A program made the position numbers and the translations under genes. A DNA stretch of 64,000 nt from Fibrobacter sp. UWB16 (GTDB lineage: Bacteria > Fibrobacterota > Fibrobacteria > Fibrobacterales > Fibrobacteraceae): positions 496,001-560,000 of the forward strand of contig NZ_OCMS01000003.1 in NCBI RefSeq assembly GCF_900215325.1, in the 5' to 3' direction. Positions 6,296 to 55,678 of the stretch are shown piece after piece. Every line of letters starts with the position of its first letter. Position 1 is the stretch's first letter. The notes beneath the pieces were generated by a model. That model made no database searches. It worked only from the letters and a program-made list of their open reading frames with translations, and was not told the DNA's origin.

Positions 6296-6310
6296 GTAAA
6301 AAAGCGTTTG

Positions 6311-6359
6311 TCACCCCGGCTGGAGCCTGCCCCGGACTGGTTCCGGGGTGCCGGGGTCG
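6311..6359. repeat. GC-rich nested palindrome
   Basis: CCCCGGA (6330-6336) pairs with TCCGGGG (6342-6348), and CACCCCGG (6312-6319) can pair around it with CCGGGGT (6351-6357). It belongs to the dispersed GC-rich palindromes of this window and lies just after the rimO stop codon. Confidence 0.6.
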
Positions 6360-6366
6360 CCTTTTC

Positions 6367-7680
6367 CTAGTCAATTAATTTCACCACAAGTTCGTGCGGT
6401 TCGGCGTCAACGACGAGTGCGTTGTGGAATTCACCAACGTCGCCATCGCCCTCGATGACCTTCACGATATCGTCGTTTTCCATCGAGTTTCCTTCTGTGC
6501 GGCCGTAGAAGTGGTATTCGCTTTCTTCGGCGACCTGGTCGATGATGATCTTGACGGTCTTTCCGATCATGTTCTCGGCGTATTCAGCAGCGAGTTCTTC
6601 CTGATAGTCCGTGACTGCTTCGAGCCTTGCTCGGGCGTCGCTTTCATCCACGGCAGGGAGGTCCATTTCCATCACCGGAGTGCCTTCTTCGGGGCTGAAC
6701 ACAAAGCCGCCCAGGTGGTCGAATTGCACGTCCTGCAACAGCTCCATCAGCTCTTCAAAATCTTCGTGCGTTTCACCGGGGAAACCGACGAGCACCGTGC
6801 TGCGGAGCGTCACGCCCGGGATGCGTTCGCGAATCTTGTGTAAAAGGTCGACAAGTTCTTTTTTGCGGTAGTTGCGCTTCATGTTCTTGAGCATCTTGTC
6901 GCTTGCATGCTGGATAGGCATGTCCACGTATTTCACAAGGCGTGGTTCGTTTGCCATCAAGTCCAGAAGTTCATCGTCCACGAACATCGGGTACCAATAG
7001 AGCATACGAATCCATGGGATGCTCGTGTTGTCAAGCAGTGCTCGCAAAAGTTCAACAAGCGTGCCTCCTTTTTTGCCCTTCTCACGTCCAAAGTAAGTCG
7101 TGTCCTGCGCAATCAAAGTAATTTCCTTGATGCCCTGCGCTTCGAGGTCTTTGGCCTCTGCTACGATGTCTTCAATGGAACGGGAATCCTGCTTGCCGCG
7201 AATCAGCGGAATGGCGCAGTAGGCGCAACGGCGGTTGCAACCTTCCGCAATTTTCAGATAAGCGTGGTGGCTAAATCCTCCCAAGTTCATGCGGGGGAGG
7301 TTCTCGGCGTCACAGCTCTGCGGAGCGACAATGCCCATCTTCTTCAAAAGTTCGCCCGGCTTGTACGTGCCGACCCAGTAGTCCACCTCGGGCAGTTCCT
7401 TCATCAGCTCTTCGCCGTAGCGGCCGCTCAGACAGCCCGAAACAATCAGTTTCTGCTTAGCCTTCTTGGCTTTGGCCTGGGCAAGAATCGCGTTGATGGA
7501 TTCTTCCTTAGCGGCTTCGATAAAACCGCATGTGTTCACGAGGATGTAGTCTGCCTTTCCGGCGGTATCGCAGGTAGCAAAACCTGCATGGAGCATTTCA
7601 CCGACGAGGTTCTCTGCATCGACCTGGTTTTTTGCGCATCCGAGATGCACGACAAATACTTTGGGCTTTTTTGTAGGCAT
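6367..7680 (-). CDS. rimO: ribosomal protein S12 methylthiotransferase RimO
   Basis: RimO adds a methylthio group to the conserved aspartate of ribosomal protein S12, using two iron-sulfur clusters and S-adenosylmethionine. Cys15, Cys51 and Cys83 match the N-terminal cluster, and Cys148, Cys152 and Cys155 (GCNRRCAYC) form the radical-SAM cluster. A TRAM-like RNA-binding end closes the 437-residue protein. MiaB is the nearest alternative, but VHLGCAKNQVDAE and the length fit RimO better. A minus-strand TATATT ends 6 bases before the ATG and no Shine-Dalgarno site is visible, so the mRNA may be leaderless. Confidence 0.95.
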   Translation of the reverse strand: MPTKKPKVFVVHLGCAKNQVDAENLVGEMLHAGFATCDTAGKADYILVNTCGFIEAAKEESINAILAQAKAKKAKQKLIVSGCLSGRYGEELMKELPEVDYWVGTYKPGELLKKMGIVAPQSCDAENLPRMNLGGFSHHAYLKIAEGCNRRCAYCAIPLIRGKQDSRSIEDIVAEAKDLEAQGIKEITLIAQDTTYFGREKGKKGGTLVELLRALLDNTSIPWIRMLYWYPMFVDDELLDLMANEPRLVKYVDMPIQHASDKMLKNMKRNYRKKELVDLLHKIRERIPGVTLRSTVLVGFPGETHEDFEELMELLQDVQFDHLGGFVFSPEEGTPVMEMDLPAVDESDARARLEAVTDYQEELAAEYAENMIGKTVKIIIDQVAEESEYHFYGRTEGNSMENDDIVKVIEGDGDVGEFHNALVVDAEPHELVVKLID

Positions 7681-11501: not shown

Positions 11502-11526
11502 CGCTACGCTTCCAGCCACGCTTTGT

Positions 11527-11592
11527 CATGCCCGTCGCCGAGCGGGCTCTTTTTTACGTTGTCATGCCCGCCGCCGAGCGGGCATCTCCTTT
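11527..11592. repeat. two tandem GC-rich palindromes
   Basis: Two units of the type GTCATGCCCGCCGCCGAGCG (GC) lie about 36 bases apart, each able to form a CCCG/CGGG hairpin. Related units occur at 13817, 40781, 45066, 46711, 47255 and 55654. Confidence 0.75.
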
Positions 11593-15654: not shown

Positions 15655-15692
15655 CGTTTAATGGCAATGGACTAATGGTCAACAACTAATTA
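15655..15692. repeat. AT-rich dispersed repeat copy
   Basis: Contains GACTAATGGTCAACAACTAA, the complement of the TTAGTTGTTGGTCATTAGT-type element also seen at 32486-32577, 38497-38526, 45140-45178 and 47208-47240. Confidence 0.55.
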
Positions 15693-15735
15693 CTATCTTT
15701 GTCGCGAAATTAAAAAATCAACCATTGAGATTATT

Positions 15736-31182: not shown

Positions 31183-32484
31183 ATGAACTTAAAAACCGTA
31201 GCTGCGGTCGGTACCGCATTTGGAATTCTTGGTGTCGGATCTGCCTTTGCAACGTTCGCCCGTATTGAATCTATGGGCAAAAACACCACTTACATCATGG
31301 ATGATGTGAGCATTTTTGATAACGCTGCAAACATCAATCTCTACTCCAACTACTTGATTGGTGAATTCGGCCCTTATACCGACAACGATTTGAAGGCTGG
31401 TGGAAACGTTGATCCGCAGCATCCGAGCTTTGGTGGCATTTTCTCCATTGCTATTGGCGATGACAACAACCCGGACCCGCGTATCTCTATCGGTGGTCTC
31501 TTTGGCCGTGTGAATGCTGAACTTATGCAGTATTTGCCGAACAAGGTCATCGGTGACAATGGCGAAGTTACTAATGTCCCTGAAACAGTGACGAACTTCG
31601 ACGGCTTCTTGGGTGGTACGCTCTCGGACGGCAATGCCTGGGGCTTGCATGTTTATATTGCAACGCAGGATGGTGGTGACAAGGGTGAAGATGGCAACTA
31701 CCAGGTGTCCAAGAACTCCTTTGCCTCTGTTGTGCAGGCTGACGGTGGTATGAACTTCCAGTTCACGAACTACTTCGACTTGGAATTCTCTCTTGCTTTG
31801 GCCCGTATCCAGTACGGTCCGGAACACCACAACTTCTTTGACGATGGCAACTTCTCCTGGTTGATCAAGTCTCGTGCATTCTTTACTTTGGACGCCATTA
31901 ACGGCGAACTCGTGCCGGCCTTGAACCTCAAGTTCATCGATGCTCCGGGTCTGGATGAAAAGCATGCTCAGGTTGGCGTTGGTGTCAACGTCGCTCTCGA
32001 CCGTGGCTTCTTCTGGATGGGCTTGGACTTTATCTATAACAAGAGAAAGGCTCATGACTGGTTCTATGAAAAAGGTGTCTGGACTTACGATTCCCGTAAC
32101 GAAGACAACAAGATTTGGGACGACCGTACCGATGTCGGTGGCATGATCAGCTTCGGTATCGAACGTAACATTTGGTGGGATTGGTTCGTGATCCGTGTTG
32201 GCGGTCAGAAGTCTATCCTTTATACAAAGTGCAATGTCAACGACAAGAATGCTGACAAGTACACCAAGGATCATTATGGTATCTGCAAGGACGATGGCAA
32301 CTTCTTCACCACGAATCCGCTTGCTGACGGTACCTCTAAGGACCATGTTGGCTTCGGTTTCGGTATCAACATCGAAGAAAAGTTGAAGATCGACGTGACC
32401 GTTGCTGAAGACCTCCTCTTCCGCAACCCGTTCCAGGGCGAAGGCCGTCTCTTCTCCAGAATCTCTGCAACGTACTCGTTCTAA
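31183..32484 (+). CDS. predicted outer-membrane barrel protein, 433 aa
   Basis: A signal peptide (MNLKTVAAVGTAFGILGVGS, ending AFA) precedes a protein of many short amphipathic strands with Asp/Asn-rich turns (ISIAIGDDNNPDPRISIGGL, NYFDLEFSLALARIQYG, VGFGFGINIEEKLKIDVTV) that ends FSRISATYSF, a typical outer-membrane barrel C-terminus. The N-terminal ENTT/IMDD region recalls porin-like proteins of unknown function common in this genus. AGGAG lies 7 bases before the ATG. It follows the TolQ-TonB operon after a terminator but has the same codon bias. Confidence 0.8.
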   Translation: MNLKTVAAVGTAFGILGVGSAFATFARIESMGKNTTYIMDDVSIFDNAANINLYSNYLIGEFGPYTDNDLKAGGNVDPQHPSFGGIFSIAIGDDNNPDPRISIGGLFGRVNAELMQYLPNKVIGDNGEVTNVPETVTNFDGFLGGTLSDGNAWGLHVYIATQDGGDKGEDGNYQVSKNSFASVVQADGGMNFQFTNYFDLEFSLALARIQYGPEHHNFFDDGNFSWLIKSRAFFTLDAINGELVPALNLKFIDAPGLDEKHAQVGVGVNVALDRGFFWMGLDFIYNKRKAHDWFYEKGVWTYDSRNEDNKIWDDRTDVGGMISFGIERNIWWDWFVIRVGGQKSILYTKCNVNDKNADKYTKDHYGICKDDGNFFTTNPLADGTSKDHVGFGFGINIEEKLKIDVTVAEDLLFRNPFQGEGRLFSRISATYSF

Positions 32485-32485
32485 C

Positions 32486-32577
32486 TGGTCATTAGTCAAT
32501 GGTTAGTAGTCATTAGTTAAGGTCATTGGCTTGAGTCGATAATTCTAACGACTAATGACCAACAACTAAACACTAGC
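32486..32577. repeat. AT-rich dispersed repeat, two copies in opposite directions
   Basis: TGGTCATTAGTCAATGGTTA and TAGTCATTAGTTAAGGTCAT on the left face ACGACTAATGACCAACAACT on the right, so the whole region can fold. It is related to 15655, 38497, 45140 and 47208. Confidence 0.65.
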
Positions 32578-32632
32578 AACAATTTTCGAAGCGCACTCCA
32601 TCTGGGTGCGTTTCTTTTTTTATTTTATGGGC

Positions 32633-37253: not shown

Positions 37254-38497
37254 GTACCGACCGCATTCAAGACAAGTCATTAAAGTTTGACTGGTTCTTT
37301 ATTGCCGTGACGCTCACGCTCATGACGTTTGGCGTGTTCCTCGTGTATTCGGCGACTGTGGGCGAAGAACTGGCTGTTTACGATACGCACTGGTTTAGGC
37401 AGATCATTTACTTCTTGACCGGTATTGCAATTGCGGTAGGCCTTGTGTTTGTGAAAATCGACTGGCTTAAGCGCGTGGCAGTGCCGTCTTATGTGATTGC
37501 TCTATTTTTGCTGTTGTTCGTGCTCATATTTGCGGGCGATGTAAAGGGGGCGGGGCGCTGGATTGACTTGAAGGTAATCAAGTTGCAACCTTCGGAGTTT
37601 GCAAAGATTGCGTACTTGATTACGATTTCGTACTGGCTTTCGAAACATCCGGTGAGTTTGCATAAATTGAAGTCTTTTTTGGTGCCGTTAGGACTGTTTA
37701 TTGTTCCGTTCTTGCTTGTGCTGAAGCAGCCGGATTTGAGCACGGCGCTTGTGTTTACGGCAGTGACGCTTGTCGGGTTCTTTTTTGCGGGCCTCACGTT
37801 TACGGACTTGTTCTTGATTGTAAGCCCTGTCTTGTCGGTGCTATTTTCGCATTCGCAGTCGATGGTGTTGCAGGTCTTGTGGGGCATTTTGATTTGCCTT
37901 GTCGTGTTCTCTGTGTTGCGTAGGCACTTGTCCAAAAAATTCTCGGGCGTGATTATTGCGACGAACATCTTGGCGGGGTATGCCAGTACGATGGTGTGGA
38001 ACATGCTCGAACCGCACCAGCAGAAGCGCGTGAATACGTTCTTGGATCCGATGAGTGATCCGCTTGGCGATGGCTATCAGGTGTTGCAGTCGCTTACGGC
38101 GATTGGTAGCGGCGGCATTGGGGGCAAGGGCTTTGGAAACGGCTCGCAGACGAATCTCTCGTTTTTGCCCGAAGAACATACGGACTTTATCTTTAGCGTG
38201 CTCGGGGAGCAGTTTGGCTTTGTCGGGTGTGCTGCAATTCTTGTGCTGTTTACGTTGTTCTTGTGGCGAGCCTCATCGATTTGCAAGACGAACGATGACC
38301 CGTTTGTGACGCTTGTGACGATGGGCGCGTGCACGATATTCTTGTTCCACATCACGGTGAATATTGCAATGACGATTGGGCTTATGCCGGTGACGGGGCT
38401 TCCGCTGCCGTTCCTCTCTTACGGTGGCTCGTTTGCGCTTGTGTGCATGTTCCTCGTGGGGCTCTTGATGTGCCTGCGGTATCAGGGAAACAAGTAA
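37250..38497 (+). CDS. rodA: SEDS peptidoglycan glycosyltransferase RodA
   Basis: RodA polymerises glycan strands from lipid II in the elongation complex. The 415-residue protein has around ten membrane helices and the family motifs FVKIDWLKRVAVPS near helix 3, QPDLSTALVF in the central loop, and GLPLPFLSYGGSFALVCMFL near the end. FtsW is the paralogue, but the position next to mrdA and mreBCD makes RodA the better call. Its start overlaps the mrdA stop by four bases. Confidence 0.95.
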   Translation: MSTDRIQDKSLKFDWFFIAVTLTLMTFGVFLVYSATVGEELAVYDTHWFRQIIYFLTGIAIAVGLVFVKIDWLKRVAVPSYVIALFLLLFVLIFAGDVKGAGRWIDLKVIKLQPSEFAKIAYLITISYWLSKHPVSLHKLKSFLVPLGLFIVPFLLVLKQPDLSTALVFTAVTLVGFFFAGLTFTDLFLIVSPVLSVLFSHSQSMVLQVLWGILICLVVFSVLRRHLSKKFSGVIIATNILAGYASTMVWNMLEPHQQKRVNTFLDPMSDPLGDGYQVLQSLTAIGSGGIGGKGFGNGSQTNLSFLPEEHTDFIFSVLGEQFGFVGCAAILVLFTLFLWRASSICKTNDDPFVTLVTMGACTIFLFHITVNIAMTIGLMPVTGLPLPFLSYGGSFALVCMFLVGLLMCLRYQGNK

Positions 38498-38528
38498 TTA
38501 GTTGTTGGTCAATAGTCATTAGTTGATT
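38497..38528. repeat. AT-rich dispersed repeat copy
   Basis: AATTAGTTGTTGGTCAATAG followed by TCATTAGTTGATTG. It begins at the rodA stop codon. Confidence 0.6.
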
Positions 38529-40780: not shown

Positions 40781-40815
40781 CAAGAGGGAGATTCCCGCTC
40801 GGGGCGGGAATGACA
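40781..40815. repeat. GC-rich palindrome, best single copy
   Basis: CAAGAGGGAGATTCCCGCTC is followed by GGGGCGGGAATGACA. ATTCCCGC pairs with GCGGGAAT. It is the closest intergenic relative of the copy inside birA at 46711-46742. Confidence 0.8.
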
Positions 40816-43737: not shown

Positions 43738-44505
43738 ATGAAAAGTCCCGTGCGTAAGATGTTCGATGGCATTGCGAGCCGTTACGATTTTCTGAATCAC
43801 TTTCTGAGTTGTTATCAGGATGTGCTGTGGCGCAGGTATTGCTGCAAGCGTCTGAAAAAGATGATGGCTGCGGGCATGCTCGCGGAAAAGTCGATTGACG
43901 AGATGCCGCGCGATTTGAATAAAGTTCGCTTGCTCGATTTGTGCGGGGGTACGGGCGATTTTGCCAACACGTTCCGCAAAATTTTCGAATCTGGTTGCGT
44001 GTGTGCGCGCGATTTTGTCGTGGACCCTGCTGTAATCGGTGATTTTTCGTACGGGATGCTTGCCGAAGTCAAGCCGAAGAAAATCGATGCGCATGCGGTG
44101 CAACTCGATGCCATGAAAATGCCTTTTGCAGAACGCCAGTTTGACGTGATTCTGAACGGCTTTGGCATGCGTAACGTGCCTGACGCCCGTGGCGCCTTGC
44201 TGGAATCGTATCGTGTGCTCGATGAAGGCGGTTACCTTTGCGTTTTGGAATTTTTCTCGCCAAGGAATTTGTTCAACAAGTTCTTCTATAAAGTGCTTGC
44301 GCCGCTGTTCATCCCGGTGATGGGCGCCTTCTTTAGCGGCAAGCGCGACGCCTATGAATATCTGGTGAACTCGATTATTCGCTTTTTGCCGGTCGATCAG
44401 TTCTGCAAAATGGCCGAAGAATGCGGCTTTGAAGTCAAGCAAGTCAAGATGTTTGATGGCGGAATTTCGTTTGGCGTGTTCTTGCACAAGCCGGGTAAAG
44501 CATGA
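43738..44505 (+). CDS. ubiE: UbiE/MenG-family demethylmenaquinone methyltransferase
   Basis: This SAM-dependent methyltransferase carries out the last step of menaquinone synthesis, methylating the ring of demethylmenaquinone. The SAM motif is LLDLCGGTGDFANTF, and NGFGMRNVPDARGALLESYR and ISFGVFLHKPG fit the family. Compared with typical members it has extra residues after the SAM motif (about 85-110, including a run of Cys residues), so some divergence exists. It begins a cluster whose next genes are ubiX-like and ubiA-like, and it overlaps the ubiX start by four bases (ATGA). Confidence 0.93.
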   Translation: MKSPVRKMFDGIASRYDFLNHFLSCYQDVLWRRYCCKRLKKMMAAGMLAEKSIDEMPRDLNKVRLLDLCGGTGDFANTFRKIFESGCVCARDFVVDPAVIGDFSYGMLAEVKPKKIDAHAVQLDAMKMPFAERQFDVILNGFGMRNVPDARGALLESYRVLDEGGYLCVLEFFSPRNLFNKFFYKVLAPLFIPVMGAFFSGKRDAYEYLVNSIIRFLPVDQFCKMAEECGFEVKQVKMFDGGISFGVFLHKPGKA

Positions 44506-45158
44506 GCCACTTTGTGCTTGGAGTGACGGGCGCTAGCGGCAGCATTTATGCGACCCGTACGGCGATGTACTTGCAGCGTTTTGGCCATGAGGTTACGCTC
44601 ATCGTAACGCACCCGGGCAAACAGGTTCTCGAATACGAAGGCCAAAGTGCGCTTTTCGACTATTGCAAAGACGTGCGCAACGTGGATGATTTTTTTGCGG
44701 AATGCGCGAGCGGTTCTAGCGATATTGCAGGCATGGCTGTGGTGCCGTGCTCCATGGGAACGCTCGGGCGCATTGCGGCTGGGACTTCGGACAACTTGCT
44801 TGTGCGCGCGGCGGATGTTTGCCTCAAGGAACGCAGGCCACTTGTGATTGTGCCGCGCGAGATGCCGTACAACTTGATCCACATCGAGAATATGAAGCGA
44901 GTGACTTTGGCGGGCGCGGTCGTGATTTCGGCGTCGCCGCAGTTCTACAGCAAGCCTCAAACCATTGAAGAACTTGTGGATTCCGTCGTCGCGAAAATCC
45001 TAAAGCACTTGGGCGTGGAACAATCGCTTGTTGCAAGTGTTGCTAAAGTGTGGAATGGCGATGAAAGGGAGATTCCCGCTCCCCGGAACAAGTCCGGGGC
45101 AAGCTCAAGCGGGAATGACAAATCCACGGAGGCGGGAACGACAACCAATGACCAATAA
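44502..45158 (+). CDS. ubiX: UbiX-family flavin prenyltransferase (MqnM-like)
   Basis: UbiX proteins make prenylated FMN, the cofactor of UbiD-type decarboxylases; in the futalosine pathway this supports removal of a carboxyl from the naphthoate ring. Family motifs are VLGVTGASGSIYATRTAMYL, AVVPCSMGTLGRIAAGTSDN and PLVIVPREMPYNLIHIENMK. The last about 35 residues, after KVWNGD, are encoded by a GC-rich palindromic repeat and an AT-rich repeat, not by conserved sequence. No ubiD gene is adjacent. It overlaps ubiE by four bases and is followed by the ubiA-like gene. Confidence 0.9.
   Translation: MSHFVLGVTGASGSIYATRTAMYLQRFGHEVTLIVTHPGKQVLEYEGQSALFDYCKDVRNVDDFFAECASGSSDIAGMAVVPCSMGTLGRIAAGTSDNLLVRAADVCLKERRPLVIVPREMPYNLIHIENMKRVTLAGAVVISASPQFYSKPQTIEELVDSVVAKILKHLGVEQSLVASVAKVWNGDEREIPAPRNKSGASSSGNDKSTEAGTTTNDQ
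45066..45120. repeat. GC-rich palindrome within the ubiX 3' end
   Basis: GGGAGATTCCCGCT at 45067-45080 and GCGGGAATGACA at 45109-45120 are the two arms, with a nested CCCCGGA/TCCGGGG hairpin between. It is translated as part of the UbiX tail. A further CGGAGGCGGGAACGAC follows at 45126. Confidence 0.85.
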
Positions 45159-45179
45159 CTATTGACTAACAGCTAAACC

Positions 45180-46285: not shown

Positions 46286-47203
46286 TTAAATTTCCAAATC
46301 CGCTGAGATAACGGTTTCGACGCTCCCGTCGTCACATTCAAAGAGCAGGCTGCCATCATCTTTCATGTCGATGATGCGGCCTGTTTTTTTGATGGATCCT
46401 TCGCCGGAATCCCGGTTTTGGTCGGTGCAGTGATGGTTTACGATGATGGTGCCGCGGGCGCCGATGAACTGGTCCATGCGCTTCCAAGCTTCGACCCATG
46501 GGCGAATGCCGAAGGCTTTGAACTGTCCGATGGCGCGTTCGAGATTCCCGATAAGCGCCTGCAAAAGCTTTTCGCGATTGACTGGATGCCCGAAGATTTC
46601 TTTGAGCGTGGTGACGGCGCGATTCAGGTGCGCATAATCGGCAGAATCGCTATTGACGTTTATTCCGACACCCATTGAAAGAGCCGGACGCGGCGCATCT
46701 TGTTGCATTATCATTCCCGCGGAAGCGGGGACCTCCCTCTTGACGAAGACTATTTCCGCGAGAATCCCGCAGAACTTGCTTTTGCCGTAGAGAATGTCGT
46801 TGGGCCATTTGACCGTGATTTTTGGCGAGTTAGCGTTTACCGATTCAGCGCAGTCCCGGTTTGCAATAGCAACGTCTTCTTGAACATTGTTGAATGTTTC
46901 TGCAAATGTGAGTGCGGCTACTTGTGTAATTTGTGCAAAATTACTTGCGGGTATTCCTTCGAGCGGAATCAGAATGTTGAAATAGAGATTCTTGCCGGCA
47001 GGGGAGTCCCACGTGCGTTCGTGACGGCCATGCCCATCGCTTTGAGAGTCTGCGACAAAGAGCGTGCCTGGTGCAATTTCACCAGAGGCCGCCATGGATT
47101 TCATGAGCTTGTGCGTGCTGCCGATAGTCTCGAAAAGATAAGCTGGTGCCCCGTTAAAACCCGTAAGCTGCCAGTCTGTGAAATTGCGTTCTTGAGAAAA
47201 CAT
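46286..47203 (-). CDS. birA: biotin--[acetyl-CoA-carboxylase] ligase (BirA, class I)
   Basis: BirA links biotin to carrier proteins such as the acetyl-CoA carboxylase subunit. Conserved parts are IGSTHKLMKSMA, SQSDGHGRHERTWDSPAGKN (biotinoyl-adenylate loop), VKWPNDILYGKSKFCGILAE and a C-terminal SH3-like domain. The N-terminal DNA-binding domain of E. coli BirA is absent, so it is a plain ligase. Two extra inserts stand out: about 20 residues before PKITVKWPND, and the segment KREVPASAGM, which comes from a palindromic repeat. Both are in frame and motifs around them are intact, so the enzyme may still work. Confidence 0.93.
   Translation of the reverse strand: MFSQERNFTDWQLTGFNGAPAYLFETIGSTHKLMKSMAASGEIAPGTLFVADSQSDGHGRHERTWDSPAGKNLYFNILIPLEGIPASNFAQITQVAALTFAETFNNVQEDVAIANRDCAESVNANSPKITVKWPNDILYGKSKFCGILAEIVFVKREVPASAGMIMQQDAPRPALSMGVGINVNSDSADYAHLNRAVTTLKEIFGHPVNREKLLQALIGNLERAIGQFKAFGIRPWVEAWKRMDQFIGARGTIIVNHHCTDQNRDSGEGSIKKTGRIIDMKDDGSLLFECDDGSVETVISADLEI
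46711..46742. repeat. GC-rich palindrome inside birA coding sequence
   Basis: TCATTCCCGC is followed by GGAAGCGGGGACCTCCCTCT and TG. Outside the loop it matches 26 of 28 positions of the complement of the intergenic copy at 40781-40815. On the minus strand it is translated in frame as KREVPASAGM. Confidence 0.85.
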
Positions 47204-47207
47204 TTGC

Positions 47208-47240
47208 TAGCCGTTAGTCGATGGTCATTAGTTATTAGAA
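47208..47240. repeat. AT-rich dispersed repeat upstream of birA
   Basis: TAGCCGTTAGTCGATGGTCA followed by TTAGTTATTAG. It abuts the birA start and must contain or overlap its promoter. Confidence 0.55.
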
Positions 47241-47251
47241 AATCTAGTAAA

Positions 47252-47316
47252 AGGAGATGCCCGCTCGGAGGCGGGCATGACAGGAACAGAGATGCCCGCT
47301 CGGAGGCGGGCATGAC
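47252..47316. repeat. two tandem GC-rich palindromes
   Basis: Two units of AGATGCCCGCTCGGAGGCGG (GCATGACA), starting near 47255 and 47290, are almost identical. Each forms a GCCCGC/GCGGGC hairpin. The rest of the gap to 47396 holds an AATTCAGAACTCCTAATTCC-type AT-rich stretch and no gene. Confidence 0.85.
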
Positions 47317-47396
47317 ATGGGTGGCGACTTTCGGTTTTTGCAGCAGTCTTAATTCAGAACTCCTAATTCCGAATTCATAACTGCGGCTAAGCCGCT

Positions 47397-55599: not shown

Positions 55600-55678
55600 T
55601 ACTGCCACCTCGGACTCCGTTCCGGGGTCACCATACACTATTAAAGGCGATGCCCGCACTGAGGCCGGCATGACAACA
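55600..55678. repeat. GC-rich palindromes
   Basis: CCTCGGACTCCGTTCCGGGG is followed by TCACC, then by GATGCCCGCACTGAGGCCGG and CATGACA. Two diverged palindrome units fill the gap after the gene at 55076-55594. Confidence 0.65.

Follow-up and report, generated by a model that had tools for sequence, protein, structure and literature searches.

The biotin ligase gene birA of Fibrobacter carries, within one variable turn of its product, in-frame copies of a dispersed palindrome that closely resembles the CGTC-tagged REPs, and this turn appears to have acquired such elements at least three times, probably four or more, with additional turnover of the hairpin apex in place. The explanation that we prefer, at a probability of roughly 0.78, is that CGTC-tagged REPs are untargeted, lodge in frame, and persist only at points of the protein that can accommodate a spacer. 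REPs would be copied to new places without a preferred frame, and insertions that shift the frame or fall in structured parts would be removed by selection. Since birA is present in a single copy and is presumably essential, we propose that harmful insertions are purged and that REPs last only in tolerant spots. A settled hairpin would then decay, be partly deleted, or have its apex rewritten in place, probably via recombination with other REP copies.

The birA insert and its dispersed family

The window analysed here, a stretch of 64,000 nucleotides, contains birA on the minus strand (46286..47203), which encodes a single-domain biotin--[acetyl-CoA-carboxylase] ligase of 305 aa, recognised by PF03099, TIGR00121 and an AlphaFold match, the model aligning with E. 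coli BirA (2ewn) at Z 24.6. In the window's genome (G000) it is the sole biotin ligase and a single-copy gene. The original prediction placed a palindrome in frame within this gene at 46711-46742, where it is indeed present: minus strand 46742-46711 reads CAAGAGGGAGGTCCCCGCTTCCGCGGGAATGA and differs from the copy at 40781-40815 by just two mismatches outside the hairpin apex. The REP copy, of the CGTC/TGTC type, occupies 46709..46736 and runs head-first on the plus strand, hence tail-first relative to the gene, with head TATC, stem ATTCCCGC, loop GGAA, stem GCGGGGAC and tail CTCC. It is read in frame within the minus-strand ORF 46286-47203, and encodes KREVPASAGM in a variable turn (codons 155-171; 46691..46741, minus strand) delimited by AlphaFold2 secondary structure and genus alignments. 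The turn sits between strands 142-154 and 172-181, with the insert between the conserved GILAE and GVGINVN strands, and its AlphaFold2 pLDDT of about 62 may partly reflect poor alignment of the turn. Elsewhere in BirA, residues about 112-127 (ANRDCAESVNANS) form a second length-variable segment, which varies strongly between species and contains no REP.

The insert is a decayed copy of a dispersed palindrome of 28-30 bp, with head TGTC, an 8-bp stem beginning AT, and tail C-N-C-C. Its head TATC is a decayed form of TGTC, the tag carried by the large majority of copies in the genome, and likewise by birA alleles L002, L003, L008, L010 and L014, and two of its eight stem pairs are broken, leaving six in Watson-Crick form. 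Under the REP grammar the window allele scores only 12, a value reached by 4 of 1520 codon-shuffled windows, which lends some colour to the idea that the palindrome arose by chance or through an assembly error, or belongs to a pseudogene. That idea retains practically no probability, being refuted by the sister species (G004, allele L002), in which a better preserved copy with a score of 15 occupies the same place; in addition, all 76 readable alleles keep an unbroken frame, the gene is the sole ligase in the genome, and recognisable elements occur in 15 species. Rfam holds no family that matches the birA hairpin.

The palindrome had been predicted to be dispersed, and a survey of the genome (3.56 Mb in 9 contigs, genus Fibrobacter) bears this out, as the pattern TGTCAT-N9..18-GGNATC gave 131+125 matches, compared with 1+0 for a reversed control, and a looser CCCGC..GCGGG pattern gave 183 compared with 34. 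A strict grammar recovered 63 copies in 864 kb of sampled sequence, with stems of 8 bp in 59 and 9 bp in 4, a length class partly imposed by a search that demanded 8-9 bp; the search did not impose the excess seen against the reversed control. Loops among these copies are of 6 nt (39), 5 nt (15), 4 nt (5) or 3 nt (4), and tails are mostly CTCC, CGCC or CACC. Only seven close pairs were found in the 864-kb sample, of which four are tail-to-tail, three head-to-tail and none head-to-head. By pattern counts, the REP is abundant in the genus Fibrobacter and stays close to background in the family's other genera.

Within the window, intergenic copies lie just upstream of birA (47254..47282, minus strand), in tandem with it (47289..47317, minus), at 40788..40815 (minus; the copy used for comparison in the original prediction), at 11560..11588 (plus, with a degenerate tandem copy at 11524-11552) and at 55647..55675 (minus). 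A further intergenic copy (6304..6376, plus) is compound, and together with 45056-45125 it forms a family in which a second hairpin, CCCCGGAACnAGTCCGGGG, lies in the apex of an outer REP; related compound forms occur in birA allele L009 and in the FAD oxidoreductase gene of L210. The window also contains another dispersed repeat, built from ACTAATGACCAATAACTA-like units (15670-15695, 32483-32587, 38489-38524, 45143-45168 and 47196-47240), in or near intergenic regions and often adjoining REPs or gene ends.

The birA turn across the genus

The birA survey covered 80 Fibrobacter genomes together with named assemblies and yielded 81 distinct alleles, of which 76 are readable across the turn, all with an open frame, and there is one ligase per genome throughout. 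The turn lacks a palindrome in most species, where it has 10-20 residues, and it is short in Fibrobacter intestinalis-type ligases. The claim that the insert adds a peptide segment holds, and the insert is absent from most relatives, whose turn is empty; it is not the case that all of them have the segment without palindromic DNA. A recognisable REP occupies the turn in 15 species and remnants are seen in five more (L007, L120, L121, L123, L129). A REP score of at least 13 is reached at the turn by 13 of 76 alleles, as against 1 of 1520 codon-shuffled windows. Outside the turn, no REP was found within birA coding sequences, the five other hits all lying 5' of the start. Occupancy of the turn has no significant link to the REP richness of the genome (p = 0.08).

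The elements found in the turn, which have loops of 4 or 5, are not alike across species: their orientation, the frame at the head and the type of apex all vary, and a compound form occurs. They encode KREVPASAGM (L001, L002), KEIPAFAGMT (L010), KIPASAGMT (L119), RSPNKSGMT (L003, L008), LMPKQVRHDV (L017, L021), MLKQVQHDF (L020, L065) and ADADLRQHDL (L016, L122, L143), while TVIPAKAGIS in L014 comes from a REP in the opposite orientation and L009 has a compound element. By orientation and head frame they fall into three states, namely an ATG-ACA head frame, a CAT-GAC head frame and head-first, which are not interconvertible by substitutions. A finer division into five frame and orientation types collapses to these three, since the tail's phase changes with the length of the loop.

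Could all of these elements descend from one insertion in the turn of an early Fibrobacter, which diverged in place, was flipped and frame-shifted, and was lost many times? Such a history has several points in its favour, including remnants such as GMTSENAP in L007, the GATGCTGA..CAGCATGACTT frame common to L020/L065 and L016/L122, the 3' flank and tail duplication common to L119 and L129, and the argument for a single origin of eRPE-4 in Rickettsiaceae (PMC3767692). It is, however, unlikely, since common descent of the carriers of the ATG-ACA frame is rejected by a clade test (p-AU 1.5e-6), and tail-first elements themselves show two head frames. L014 has a canonical, head-first 28-bp REP with 8/8 pairs, whereas its sister L066, with flanks 90.5% identical, is empty; a second presence/absence pair of sisters, L003 and L005, has 94.5% flank identity. 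Furthermore, the REPs of L003 and L008 are the same at 29 of 29 bases, while their birA genes are only 75% identical. Parsimony gives 12 state changes on a birA tree built without the loop columns, a tree in which many forks are weak and which recombination may itself have affected. From the differences in orientation, head frame, apex and compound form, together with the polyphyly, we infer that birA was entered several times.

The same comparison points to change in place, seen within the clade of the window. The 3' flank ATGCAACAAGATGCGCC is common to L001/L002 and L008, with different apices; L003 and L119 have the same two apex types as L001/L002 and L008 on another flank; and L119 and L129 have a tail duplication in common, again with different apices. 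Part of the diversity therefore seems to stem from apices rewritten in place or alleles exchanged, and not from fresh insertions, and the likeliest cause of the apex turnover would be recombination with other REP copies or the exchange of alleles.

It might be supposed that the hairpin or its peptide has been selected for a function, whether in folding the mRNA, in pausing translation or in modifying the dimer surface, the more so as the alignment pairs the turn with TGKTGDA of E. coli BirA, a segment that we take to lie near the dimerisation surface. This is very unlikely, given that the insert is absent in most species, that the peptide differs per carrier lineage, and that the hairpin is decaying in the window allele and matches nothing in Rfam. 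As the peptide is unconserved, it looks like a tolerated spacer and not a made-to-order segment, and it is probably neutral.

UbiX and an FAD oxidoreductase

Two further genes carry the element. The flavin prenyltransferase gene ubiX (44502..45158, plus strand; TIGR00421) has a REP-derived C-terminal tail, formed by a compound REP at 45056..45125 (minus strand) with a second hairpin, CCCCGGAACAAGTCCGGGG, in the stem apex of the outer REP. This copy had been taken for the same simple palindrome as that in birA, which its nested structure contradicts. Among species, the compound element is read at the UbiX C-terminus in three frames, giving REIPAPRNKSG (L230, L231), RRFPLPGTSPGQAQAGMT (L235) and GDSRSPEQVRGKLKRE-stop (L236). 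All three frames being in use, the REP has no preferred frame, and the RE-I/V-PA frame common to the birA and UbiX copies is not general, as birA alleles themselves come in both orientations and with two head frames. In L236 (compound REP) and L233 (simple REP) ubiX ends at the TGA within the REP head (ATGACA), so that in some species the REP determines how long the C-terminal tail is.

A search for palindromes inside coding sequences had been suggested, and in the 864 kb sampled the REPs proved mainly intergenic, with one clear strict intragenic case, in an FAD oxidoreductase (L103:2362-2389, REIPACAGMT). Two other intragenic candidates, raised by codon score, were rejected as probable start-codon or gene-end artefacts. 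Degenerate REP copies are also present in the serine-rich linkers of two lipoproteins. In the FAD oxidoreductase, the variable segment is occupied by a REP in G000, G014, G004, G019 and G020 and by a compound REP in G027, while in further species it holds apparently unrelated repeats (GACGAAAGACG runs, a ~110-bp element, and GTCATTGCGAGC..GAAGCAATCC). The structure model of this protein has a pLDDT of 40, too low to use, and the exposure of its insert is therefore suggested by its variability; the UbiX C-terminus is likewise presumed to be exposed from its variability.

Several observations on the FAD gene stand apart. At about codon 250, four species (L260-L263) have an in-frame insert of ~110 bp encoding QTRDDNTIRRALRPTELGITEPTCWHEVQRRETRE where others have the REP, and this may be another dispersed element. 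An in-frame repeat GTCATTGCGAGC..GCGAAGCAATCC is found at the REP place in L203, L205, L207 and L227, in some with a nested hairpin, and one species (L265) has an in-frame tandem array of ~36-bp REP-like units (ATSSWNETKLSS repeats).

The variety of occupants bears on whether the birA hotspot is one of targeting instead of tolerance, with the mobilising machinery preferring a DNA motif in birA. The elements there begin no more than a few codons from one particular lysine/arginine codon at the strand end, and biotin ligase is also a reported target of RPE/WPE elements in Rickettsia and Wolbachia (PMC3767692), yet there is no obvious common target word, genomic copies are mostly intergenic, and the filling of the FAD segment by both REPs and apparently unrelated repeats fits tolerance better, which makes site-specific insertion quite unlikely. 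The birA turn, the FAD segment and the UbiX C-terminus behave alike, and what recurs is the permissive place.

Relation to known palindromes and significance

CGTC-tagged REPs, which include Neisseria dRS3 and Rickettsia RPE-4 and RPE-6, are sometimes found in frame in genes and are without a known transposase (PMC3733652). Judged by sequence, the Fibrobacter elements closely match the published anatomy of this class, with a terminal CGTC/TGTC tag, an 8-bp stem starting AT, a short loop and a short unpaired tail, as well as many copies, mostly intergenic, some in-frame intragenic ones and no dedicated transposase. Some typical features differ. Loops of 4-5 nt are typical of the class, with others in some species, whereas those of Fibrobacter are mostly 6 nt; tails are mostly CCA, as opposed to C-N-C-C; head-to-head dimers, typical of the class though not defining, are absent among the seven close pairs in Fibrobacter; and the nested compound form is found in Fibrobacter, unlike the REPs described there (PMC3733652). 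A text search of that paper found no mention of Fibrobacter, and the literature searched yielded nothing relevant on REPs in this genus.

The elements are also similar to RPE-4, RPE-6, RPE-7 and the WPEs in being in frame in conserved proteins, solvent-exposed and ATGAC-rich; RPE/WPE inserts are 68-192 bp long, whereas single elements in Fibrobacter have 28-30 bp and the compound form ~70 bp (PMC3767692). They share with RPE-1 and related large RPEs (Ogata et al. 2000) the character of a selfish-looking palindrome that adds an in-frame peptide to unrelated genes; as these are summarised in PMC10969869, they measure about 150 bp and encode a conserved peptide, in contrast to the ~30 bp and several frames of the Fibrobacter element. 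RAYT-mobilised REPINs are likewise short dispersed palindromes behaving like non-autonomous mobile DNA, but there the gene for RAYT, a Y1 transposase, is flanked by the element (PMC3116915, PMC3733652), while G000 has no PF01797. This RAYT domain, the one transposase family covered by the search, is present in 20 of 61 genomes of the genus and is unrelated to REP density (p = 0.86). No target-site duplication is evident at the REP inserts, no insertion event was observed directly and no transposase came to light, and we accordingly infer REP movement from recurrent polyphyletic presence. The proposal of a mobile palindrome that creates peptide segments therefore stands in part: recurrence argues for mobility, the lack of a transposase and a target duplication weakens it, and the unconserved peptide speaks against a made-to-order segment.

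Recurrence at one site has precedents. Di Nocera, De Gregorio and Rocco (2013) described different REPs at about the same recB site in two Xanthomonas species (PMC3733652), and the biotin ligase RJP_0524 carries RPE-6 in R. japonica, R. conorii and R. africae and RPE-4 in R. felis, and WPEs are reported for that region of the gene in Wolbachia (PMC3767692), so that the analogy with Rickettsia, drawn in advance, was apt. In-frame REPs, including those reported in birA of Rickettsia and Wolbachia, are thus already known; the novelty lies in the phylum and in a recurrence at one turn that a tree resolves. For Rickettsia it was not decided whether the sites are hotspots or each hold a single ancient insert, although the latter was preferred (PMC3767692); in Fibrobacter, elements were apparently gained, exchanged and lost at one turn among species of the same genus. 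Our data favour recurrent colonisation over one ancient insert, for this genus.

The turn occupied in Fibrobacter is possibly, though on balance doubtfully, the same that carries RPE-4/RPE-6 in Rickettsia and WPEs in Wolbachia, in which case one class of selfish palindrome would have reached a single permissive spot of an essential enzyme independently in two phyla. If so, the birA turn could be a natural trap that records REP movement. Across the 76 readable alleles of this single-copy gene, gains, apex swaps, decay and loss are traceable on a tree, and a second gene behaves alike; moreover, the natural presence/absence pairs are usable for testing mobility and the cost of the insert. Short selfish DNA can also supply proteins with in-frame loop insertions, here in a phylum for which the literature searched holds no earlier description of it.
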